Shown here in pieces: positions 5,374 through 29,213 of a stretch of 64,000 nt of DNA; position 1 is the first letter of the stretch, and every line of letters starts with the position of its first letter. The position numbers were made by a program, and so were the translations under genes. The DNA is taken from the NCBI RefSeq assembly GCF_004151245.1, contig NZ_JUIW01000008.1, forward strand, positions 186,001 through 250,000, in the 5' to 3' direction. Under the pieces are notes generated by a model. It searched no databases, was not told the origin of the DNA, and saw nothing but the letters and a program-made list of their open reading frames with translations. Origin of the DNA: Flavobacterium beibuense (GTDB lineage: Bacteria; Bacteroidota; Bacteroidia; Flavobacteriales; Flavobacteriaceae).

Positions 5374-6108
5374 ATGAAAACAAAATTACTTTTAGCGTTC
5401 AGTCTTTTCTTGTCACTGTTTGCTACTTCCTGCAACTTTACAGAAACACTGGTTATAAACGAAGATGGTAGCGGTACCATGACATTAGCTATGGACGCCT
5501 CTCAGCTAATGGCTATGGCAGGTGAAGAAATGACAAAGGAAACAGGAGGTGAGCGTATGGATACTATTATAAATTTTAAGGAACTTCTTGAAGAACATAA
5601 AGATAGTATTGCTATGCTGCCTGAAAAGGAAAGAAAGATGATGCAGGCGTTTTCTAATATGAAAATGAAAATGTTGATGGATCCTGCTACAACCGAATTT
5701 AAATTTGATATGATAACGGATTTTAAAGGAGTTAACGAACTTCAGGATATGATGAAGCTTATGAAGGAAGTTAAAAATATGCAGGGAGGAGCTAATGAGC
5801 AGGATGGTATGCCTGATGCTTTTAAAAATGATTCGGAAGTAAGCTATTTTTATAATGGTAAAAAGTTTATTAAAAAAATAACTATGCCTGCCGAAATAGA
5901 ACAAATTCCTGATAGCCTTGCAATGTATATGGCTATGTTTGAAAGTTCTAAATATGTAATGAATTATAAGTTTCCTAAAAGAATCAAGTCGGTGTCAAAT
6001 TCTGCTGCCGTAATTAGTGAAGACAGAAAATCAGTTACCGTTACATATACTCTTAGCGATTATTATGTTGATCCTAAAAATATGGGGATTGAGGTAAATT
6101 TTGAATAA
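5374..6108 (+). CDS. Methionine-rich lipoprotein, function unknown
   Basis: 244 residues from the ATG at 5374, chosen because it opens directly on a lipoprotein signal peptide with lipobox Cys C20; an upstream in-frame start would overlap the promoter. Residues 35-150 are unusually rich in Met, with runs such as RKMMQAFSNMKMKMLMD and DMMKLMKEVKNM, and are probably helical. The C-terminal third looks beta-rich (TVTYTLSDYYV). I recognise no domain. It has its own promoter and a terminator, so it is monocistronic. Predicted location: membrane-anchored, periplasmic side. The Met clusters could bind Cu(I) or mediate packing; this is speculation. Confidence 0.75.
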   Translation: MKTKLLLAFSLFLSLFATSCNFTETLVINEDGSGTMTLAMDASQLMAMAGEEMTKETGGERMDTIINFKELLEEHKDSIAMLPEKERKMMQAFSNMKMKMLMDPATTEFKFDMITDFKGVNELQDMMKLMKEVKNMQGGANEQDGMPDAFKNDSEVSYFYNGKKFIKKITMPAEIEQIPDSLAMYMAMFESSKYVMNYKFPKRIKSVSNSAAVISEDRKSVTVTYTLSDYYVDPKNMGIEVNFE

Positions 6109-27652: not shown

Positions 27653-27686
27653 TTGGTTTTTAATCAAAAAATATTTTATAAGTTTG
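27653..27686 (+). promoter_or_regulatory. rpsU promoter
   Basis: TTG (27653-27655), a 23-base spacer and exact TAAGTTTG (27679-27686). It predicts a leader of about 20 bases that consists mostly of the Shine-Dalgarno sequence. Confidence 0.55.
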
Positions 27687-27697
27687 CACCCTTAACG

Positions 27698-27707
27698 AGA
27701 GGAGGTG
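27698..27707 (+). promoter_or_regulatory. Exceptionally strong Shine-Dalgarno of rpsU
   Basis: AGAGGAGGTG, seven bases before the rpsU ATG. It pairs with the 16S anti-SD core over at least eight contiguous bases. Other genes in this window start with AT-rich leaders and no SD (tuf, secE, nusG, rplL, rpoB). In Flavobacterium the anti-SD is sequestered by bS21 and neighbours, so an SD here fits autogenous control by bS21. Confidence 0.85.
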
Positions 27708-27714
27708 TTATATT

Positions 27715-27909
27715 ATGTTGATTATACCAATTAAAGACGGAGAGAATATCGATAGAGCTCTAAAGCGCTACAAGAGAAAATTTGATAAAACAGGAGTTGT
27801 TAGACAACTAAGAAGTCGTCAGCAGTTCACGAAACCATCTGTTGTAAGAAGAGCTCAAATCCAGAAAGCAGCTTATATCCAAACATTAAGAGACTCTGTA
27901 GAGAACTAA
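27715..27909 (+). CDS. rpsU: 30S ribosomal protein bS21
   Basis: 64 residues, basic, with the bS21 core GENIDRALKRYKRKFDKTGVVRQLRSRQQF. It binds near the 3' end of 16S rRNA. In Bacteroidetes it helps occlude the anti-SD, so most mRNAs do not use SD pairing (known for F. johnsoniae). Its own mRNA has a near-perfect SD, unlike the rest of the window, consistent with feedback: ribosomes lacking bS21 expose the anti-SD and translate rpsU. Followed by a strong terminator. Confidence 0.96.
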   Translation: MLIIPIKDGENIDRALKRYKRKFDKTGVVRQLRSRQQFTKPSVVRRAQIQKAAYIQTLRDSVEN

Positions 27910-27931
27910 TTAATTTTTTGGATTTAAAATA

Positions 27932-27980
27932 ATAACCGTTAGCAGAAAAGTTCATTAACTTTGCTGTTAACGGTTTTTTT
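27932..27980 (+). terminator. rpsU terminator with nested xerC -7 box
   Basis: Outer arms AACCGTTA / TAACGGTT plus an inner CAG/CTG and AAAG/CTTT pairing, then seven T's. The 3' half holds TAACTTTG (27956-27963), an exact -7 consensus, so a transcript starting about 27969 would lack the 5' arm and could not form the hairpin. The T-run ends at the xerC ATG. Confidence 0.82.
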
Positions 27981-28883
27981 ATGATTAATTCTAAACAGGC
28001 ATATGCAGATTATCTTTTAAAGGAGAAGAATTATTCTCTTTTAACCCTTAAGGCTTATACTAATGATTTGTCTGAATTTGAATCATTTATCAAACAGGAT
28101 GATGAAAGTATGGAACTTGAAGATGTGGTTTATGCTCACATTAGGGGTTGGATAGTAAATTTGGTGGAGCAGGGGTTATCTAACCGCTCGGTAAACCGAA
28201 AGATATCTTCGCTTAAATCGTTTTACAAATTTTTACTTCGTGCAAAGCAGATTGAGATCAATCCGCTTCAAAAACACAAGTCGCTTAAAACAGAAAAAAA
28301 AATCCAGGTTCCTTTTTCTGAAAAAGAGCTTACTGCTGTGTATGAGGAAATGGAGTATGCCGATGATTTTGATGGTGTTAGGGACAGGCTTATTGTGGAG
28401 CTTTTTTATACAACAGGCATGCGTAGGGCAGAGCTTATTGGTCTAAAACTTAACTCCTATGATAAAGGTGGGCAGACTTTAAAGGTTTTAGGTAAGAGAA
28501 ATAAGGAGAGAATATTACCGGTTTTGAGCTGTACTGCTCAACTTATTACAAAATATCTTACAGAAAGAAATGAGCTTGAAAATATAGTAGACAGAGATGT
28601 GTTAATTTTAAACAGGAGGGGTCAAAAAGTGAGTGAATCTTTTGTTTATAGGTTAATAAATAGTTACTTTAGTGTTGTCTCTGCTAAGGTTAAAAAGAGT
28701 CCTCATGTGTTGCGTCATACTTTCGCTACACATTTACTCAATAACGGAGCAGATTTAAACTCAGTAAAAGAATTATTAGGTCACGCAAGTTTGTCTTCTA
28801 CTCAAATATACACGCACAGCAGTCTTGCGGAGCTTAAAAAAGTATATCAGGAAGCGCATCCCCGTAACCGAAATGATTCATAA
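27981..28883 (+). CDS. xerC: Tyrosine recombinase XerC/XerD type
   Basis: 300 residues. Resolves chromosome dimers at dif together with its partner Xer and FtsK. N-terminal SAM-like core-binding domain (1-100), catalytic domain with R148 (TTGMRRAE), K172, H242/R245 ([13 protein letters not shown]), H268 (LLGHAS) and nucleophile Y277 (QIYTH). XerC versus XerD cannot be settled from one sequence; the rpsU-xerC-hpf-tRNA-tuf order is the usual flavobacterial housekeeping context, so this is not a mobile-element integrase. The ATG directly follows the upstream T-run. Confidence 0.9.
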
Positions 28884-28910
28884 TGTTTAACTATTTTAAA
28901 AGTTATGTTT

Positions 28911-29213
28911 ATGAAAGTAAATGTTCATGCAGTCAACTTTAATGTTGACAGAAAACTGGTTGGCTATGTTCAGGAAAAATTGGATAAGCTTGATAAGTAT
29001 TATGACAGAGTTGTATGTTCTGATGTGTTTTTTAAACTGGATAATACGAGTGCAAAAATTAATAAGATTGCAGAGCTTAAAGTTAGTGTTCCCGGAGACG
29101 AATTTGTAGTCAAAAAACAGTGTAAGACATTTGAGGAGGCTGTAATGTTAGCGGCTGATTCCATGGAGCGTTTATTGGTGAAAAGAAAACAAAAAGTAAG
29201 AGCGCATTCATAA
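28911..29213 (+). CDS. hpf: Ribosome hibernation-promoting factor (short form)
   Basis: 100 residues from the ATG at 28911 (another ATG two codons earlier at 28905). HPF/RaiA fold: MKVNVHAVNFNVDRKLVGYVQEKLDKLDKYYDRV, then NKIAELKVSVPGDEFVVKKQCKTFEEAVMLAADSMERLLVKRKQK. It binds the 30S decoding centre in stationary phase. There is no long C-terminal dimerisation domain. It lies 27 bases after xerC, probably co-transcribed. Confidence 0.92.
   Translation: MKVNVHAVNFNVDRKLVGYVQEKLDKLDKYYDRVVCSDVFFKLDNTSAKINKIAELKVSVPGDEFVVKKQCKTFEEAVMLAADSMERLLVKRKQKVRAHS

Follow-up and report, generated by a model that had tools for sequence, protein, structure and literature searches.

Why should rpsU, the gene for ribosomal protein bS21, carry a near-perfect Shine-Dalgarno (SD) sequence in a Flavobacterium genome whose other housekeeping genes have none? 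The question comes from the window analysed here (64,000 nucleotides of Flavobacterium beibuense). A first-pass annotation, made from the letters of the window, had answered it with a direct loop in which ribosomes that lack bS21, and whose anti-SD is thereby freed, translate rpsU. This reading matches the mechanism demonstrated in F. johnsoniae (PMC9976891, McNutt et al. 2023) and is therefore both correct and already published. The rpsU SD of the window is thus a real, further clean example of a published autoregulatory site, and we consider it very highly probable that positions 27697-27709 are the extended SD of rpsU and serve bS21 autoregulation.

The rpsU unit and its pairing with the 16S tail

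The open reading frame at 27715-27909 matches PF01165 (E 1.5e-18) and is the single bS21 match in the whole genome. Its Tyr54 is invariant across eight aligned bS21 proteins; the contact of this residue with the 16S tail is taken from the literature. The features of the locus are the following.

27653..27655, + strand: candidate -33 element TTG, 23 nt upstream of the -7 element
27679..27686, + strand: -7 promoter element TAAGTTTG (TAnnTTTG), from the sequence
27691..27714, + strand: predicted rpsU 5' leader of about 24 nt, from the promoter and the F. johnsoniae leader
27697..27709, + strand: extended SD, 13 contiguous pairs with the 16S tail, G-U at 27699, 5 nt before the ATG
27715..27909, + strand: rpsU (bS21, 64 aa, Tyr54), start ATG at 27715, PF01165
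27934..27980, + strand: intrinsic-terminator-like hairpin and T run, 3' of rpsU, abutting the ATG of the next gene
27981-28883: tyrosine recombinase gene (PF00589), directly downstream of rpsU
28905-29213: S30AE-domain gene (PF02482), probably a hibernation factor, after the recombinase and before tRNA genes and tuf

The promoters of Bacteroidota have a -33 TTG and a -7 TAnnTTTG as their consensus, and TAnnTTTG is found upstream of rpsU in all 81 loci of our comparative set (the window and the best 80 of 559 loci). The promoter element, together with the terminator-like hairpin (the fold of 27910-27990 has -21.4 kcal/mol), makes rpsU a compact single-gene unit, as is also the case in F. johnsoniae (PMC9976891). 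If transcription starts near 27691, the rpsU mRNA would have a leader of about 24 nt, against the native 25 nt of F. johnsoniae (PMC9976891).

The near-perfect SD reported seven bases before the bS21 start is there: AGAGGAGGTG occupies 27698-27707, and seven bases separate its end from the ATG at 27715. Its strength had been understated. The assembly has one 16S match, whose gene end reads ...GGCTGGAACACCTCCTTTCT and whose tail is GGAACACCTCCTTTCT (locus L032; the exact 3' end was set from the usual tail), and its anti-SD is intact and matches the rpsU leader. With this tail, GAGAGGAGGTGTT at 27697-27709 forms 13 contiguous pairs, one of them G-U, and the duplex reaches -20.9, -22.4 and -22.8 kcal/mol for tails of 13, 14 and 16 nt, respectively. 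The signature of the loop as published asks for 9-13 bp below -13 kcal/mol at rpsU, and the pairings given there span 9-13 bp and -14 to -21 kcal/mol (PMC9976891); the window leader has 13 bp and -20.9 to -22.8 kcal/mol, although our energies come from ViennaRNA duplexfold and the published ones from free_scan, so that the two sets of values are not strictly comparable.

A weak hairpin is predicted between the 3' half of the SD (27704-27708) and codons 4-5 of rpsU, which could limit access to the SD. We considered, and rejected, a leader structure that would mask the SD, in which ATACC could pair with GGTGT: the mean accessibility of the SD computed in silico is 0.51, 0.54 and 0.53 with ATA, ATT and ATC as codon 4. 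As this effect is small and ATA is common genome-wide (it accounts for 1815 of the 4599 Ile codons of long frames), we make no claim of SD hiding. As an observation in its own right, codon 4 (27724-27726) is ATA in 70 of the 81 rpsU loci (the window and the best 80 of 559), and from codon 5 onward ATA makes up 14 of the 396 Ile codons of the same genes.

Strong SD sequences in the rest of the genome

The annotation had placed a strong SD in front of rpsU only, and had named a large number of further genes with SDs of equal strength as the observation that would speak against its proposal. Such genes were looked for and not found among 259 other gene starts and 20 genomic AGGAGGTG sites, so that near-uniqueness is judged here from a start sample and from genome motif sites rather than from a whole-genome energy scan. 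Together with the window, 14 segments of 20 kb each make up the sample (344 kb out of 3.72 Mb), with starts set by a crude caller that is weak on short genes and on some starts (rpsU and secE were missed, and the ORF of 5374 was begun at 5479). None of the 259 other called starts lies at or below -13 kcal/mol, the best being -12.0, and in the window the strongest called start after rpsU has -11.4. Mock windows for the 259 starts look like the real ones (one at or below -15), and strong SDs are therefore not generally used in this genome. The leaders of six other genes of the window range from +1.6 to -3.5 kcal/mol (tuf -0.5, nusG +1.6, rplK -3.5, rplA -2.5, rpoB -0.6, rpoC -1.6), with tuf, nusG and rplK identified through their translations and rplA, rpoB and rpoC through size and order alone.

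The motif sites agree with the sample. The genome has 20 sites of the form AGGAGGTG-N3-12-ATG, and only one of them, rpsU, is the start of an independent ORF of at least 30 codons. Two (L196 and L198) stand in front of intergenic mini-ORFs, of 8 and 3 codons respectively, and the other 17 fall within longer frames (98-1033 codons) or opposite them, L162 being the least certain. The window has one of these 17, at 5544-5559; the ORF around it is lipoprotein-like and, judging from what looks like a signal peptide, would begin at 5374. The 8-codon mini-ORF of L196 (1528-1566; G000:C5:268727) reads MLKSLFSF and is located just upstream of another lipoprotein-like gene; it is possibly a leader peptide. 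A shorter core was also tried as a genome-wide SD test. Its counts, forward versus reversed, are 311 and 197 for GGAGGT-N4-13-ATG, 101 and 74 for AGGAGGT, 64 and 40 for GGAGGTG, and 31 and 26 for AAAGGAGG. Those of the 101 AGGAGGT sites that lack a following G are mostly outside the 89 distinct sites inspected, and since the majority of the sites listed are within longer frames or opposite them, a match to the core is by itself not informative and the pattern was discarded.

The word "only" must nevertheless be softened, as weaker matches exist at cysN and rplI, a difference from the F. johnsoniae system (PMC9976891). The cysN gene, assigned from its translation, is preceded by a 10-bp match, AGAAAGGAGG, of -17.4 kcal/mol, with a long spacing of 13 nt to the ATG (L169 1490-1524; G000:C1:164251). 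The rplI gene, in an rpsF-rpsR-rplI cluster found in the genome, has AAAAGGAGG before its ATG, with the core AAAGGAGG and -12.2 kcal/mol (L217 1456-1503; G000:C3). We considered rplI as a second gene under such regulation and rejected it: its match occurs in only two of the 30 genus loci listed (59 of 61 genomes matched), namely in this genome and in L219, and is missing in the loci with the closest bL9 (L218, 94%; L220, 93%), which suggests that it is probably lineage-specific. In 25 of the 30 listed loci (L221-L243, L245, L246), CTAACTT and AAGGACA stand shortly before the rplI ATG, and this shared leader is often preceded by a stretch that looks hairpin-like by eye. Five rplI loci were searched against Rfam, with no matches.

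Autoregulation by bS21 and its alternatives

In F. johnsoniae, the evidence for the loop comes from reporters, bS21 depletion and purified ribosomes (PMC9976891). Mutation or depletion of bS21 lifts rpsU'-gfp three- to more than four-fold and leaves SD-less reporters nearly unchanged; strong-SD reporters in general rise without bS21, in contrast to SD-less and weak-SD ones; and on rpsU mRNA initiation is faster with ribosomes that lack bS21 or its C-terminus. Among 200 Flavobacteriales, the commonest case was one strong-SD gene per genome, and about 80% of the order carry the loop signature (PMC9976891). Its authors see in the loop a clear example of specialised ribosomes in bacteria, and the autoregulation model has been restated in PMC10783764.

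Applied to the window, the model would run as follows. In complete ribosomes, the 16S tail would be held in a pocket formed by bS21, bS18 and bS6, so that SDs would be ignored and most mRNAs would be SD-less. In 30S subunits without bS21, the tail would be free to pair with GAGAGGAGGUGUU, and rpsU would be translated faster; the new bS21 would complete subunits, and its own synthesis would then fall. The pocket and the regulation were established in F. johnsoniae; in the window organism we observe the pairing, its conservation and near-uniqueness, the covariation with 16S, Tyr54 and the compact single-gene layout, and by homology the loop presumably operates there. Of the sequence features that such a loop would require, those compared here (extended pairing, Tyr54, an intact 16S tail, few strong SDs, a short leader and covariation of 16S and leader across families) are all present. 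Beyond the pairing itself, the published signature asks that rpsU be alone or nearly alone with a strong SD, which is what we found in the 259 sampled starts and the AGGAGGTG-site set, and that the anti-SD be intact and matching and bS21 have Tyr54, both of which were found. The likeness to F. johnsoniae thus extends to the same gene, alone in its unit, with Tyr54 and a near-absence of other strong SDs (PMC9976891), and the window genome adds another clean instance of the signature.

The best-surviving alternative, which we hold unlikely, is that the purine run works as a strong, constitutive SD and increases the translation of rpsU on every ribosome, with no feedback. Pairing by itself does not show regulation, and in the published model complete ribosomes still translate rpsU mRNA, at a reduced rate (PMC9976891, Figure 1 legend). 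Nevertheless, the ribosomes of Bacteroidia do not make use of SDs as long as their 16S tail is held, and the strong-SD reporters of F. johnsoniae, rpsU'-gfp included, respond to the bS21 level (PMC9976891); moreover, almost no other gene in the genome has a strong SD. An autoregulatory SD remains the preferred reading.

This SD is conserved among close relatives. The relatives are the best 80 of 559 rpsU loci from genome contigs, 66 of them titled Flavobacterium. With the window included, the leaders form 11 contiguous pairs in three cases, 12 in 71 and 13 in seven, the window being among the last with its 13 pairs against the usual 12, and all 81 have between -22.4 and -17.6 kcal/mol when scored with the 16S tail of the window genome rather than with each their own. 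Mock windows farther upstream of the same 81 genes have a median of +0.7 and a minimum of -6.0 kcal/mol, with none at or below -13. As these leaders belong to the nearest relatives and share common ancestry, their agreement does not amount to 81 independent cases. The G-U wobble at the position of 27699 (GAGAGG, not GAAAGG) recurs in 67 of the 81.

Conservation in this set extends upstream of the SD, where CCTTAAC or a similar stretch is often found, and the block lies just downstream of the promoter. Both points would fit a transcription element, such as an initially transcribed region or a regulator site, instead of an SD. A comparison across the order makes this reading very improbable. In a draw of 99 genomes, our promoter-to-start pattern matched 22, the other 77 being uninformative. 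All ten genomes of one family (f5), which are all the f5 genomes of the draw, have AAATGAGATGT before rpsU, and nine of them have the 16S tail ACATCTCATTT, with the core UCUCA (G099 gave no 16S match), of which AAATGAGATGT is the exact complement. The ten f5 leaders score -13.5 kcal/mol with the 12-nt UCUCA-core tail and -4.8 with the canonical tail; eight canonical leaders reach -13.2 to -18.5 when paired with the canonical tail, found in seven of these genomes (all except G115), and -4.8 to -10.1 with the UCUCA-core tail. The remaining four matched genomes (G120, G094, G062, G069) have no strong rpsU SD (+0.4 to -7.1), scored with the canonical tail as a 16S tail was found in none of them. 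The f5 leader therefore changes exactly as the f5 16S tail does, which pairing with rRNA predicts and a promoter role does not; this shows that the block acts as an SD and is strong evidence against a role in transcription alone.

The covariation of leader and 16S at rpsU that PMC9976891 credits to Jha et al. is seen again in these ten f5 genomes, and from its UCUCA core f5 would be the Chryseobacterium group. Like the Chryseobacterium-type Flavobacteriales described there, the window genome has an rpsU leader complementary to its own 16S tail; unlike them, its core is the canonical CCUCC. Chance, finally, is a negligible explanation of the purine run and already refuted: AGGAGGTG does occur nine times in the 344 kb (both strands), but none of 60,000 random 25-mers from these 344 kb reaches -18 kcal/mol (best -17.9) and all 81 leaders of the window and the best 80 of 559 loci lie at or below -17.6.

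Phage-encoded bS21 genes

Genes for bS21 are also carried by phages, which have been placed in Bacteroidetes, mostly with a bS21 nearest to Flavobacteriia (PMC9723584, Chen et al. 2022). Five single-protein IMG/VR queries gave 31 distinct rows of leader and protein, of which 29 have the size of a bS21, a set that represents the reach of a few queries close to the window bS21; a viral scan with the bS21 alignment gave no confirmed relative. Three of the 29 leaders lie at or below -7 kcal/mol and none at or below -10, and three mock windows also lie at or below -7. Without L326 and L327, which by eye have no aromatic residue at the place of Tyr54, 27 rows remain, with two at or below -7 (L319 -8.4, L333 -9.6) and none at or below -10. 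Repeated combinations of leader and protein were also dropped, as were L289-L291 (long and helicase-like by reading) and L328-L331 (90 aa or duplicates). Scored against the UCUCA tail, the IMG/VR set likewise has none at or below -10.

A collection of phage records gave 22 matches, five of which were examined (H2, with the size and coordinates of H1, and H7-H22 were left out). L250 repeats L323, L247 has AAAGGAGG and -12.1 kcal/mol, and L248, L249 and L251 score -2.4, -5.1 and +2.0. The two sources together (27 plus 4; viral loci L252-L278, L319-L324, L332-L354 and L247-L251) give 31 distinct phage bS21 genes whose products have Tyr or Trp where bS21 has Tyr54, and none of them lies at or below -13 kcal/mol. 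Only one of the 31 (L247) lies at or below -10, against all 81 cellular leaders (the window and the best 80 of 559) at or below -17.6.

The five phage bS21 proteins tested all score above the cut-off of PF01165, and in this, as in the aromatic residue at the Tyr54 position, the bS21 of Bacteroidetes phages (PMC9723584) is like that of the window. Of ten neighbour proteins, two are portal proteins by their matches; a tape measure protein, a DNA ligase, an endolysin and a family of unknown function were matched once each, and the other four gave no match.

Unlike the rpsU of the window, the phage bS21 genes examined thus have no extended SD and appear not to be wired into the loop. Bacteroidales would likewise be without the extended SD (PMC9976891), which is relevant if the hosts of these phages belong there. 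In a reading that we put forward tentatively and with slightly less than even confidence, a phage bS21 mRNA without the extended SD would be read by complete ribosomes as an ordinary SD-less message and would not be throttled as bS21 accumulates, while the host rpsU would be silenced as the vacant sites fill; the phage gene would then be an open-loop supplier that outcompetes the closed-loop gene of the host. No report of phage bS21 genes without the extended SD was found among titles and abstracts; we found no treatment of the SD of these genes in the portions of PMC9723584 consulted, and the discussion of PMC9976891 takes up the bS21 phages with, as far as found there, no mention of their leaders. 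The comparison of phage and host offers a simple test of how bS21-carrying phages deal with the loop, with one and the same gene regulated in the host and apparently not in the phage.
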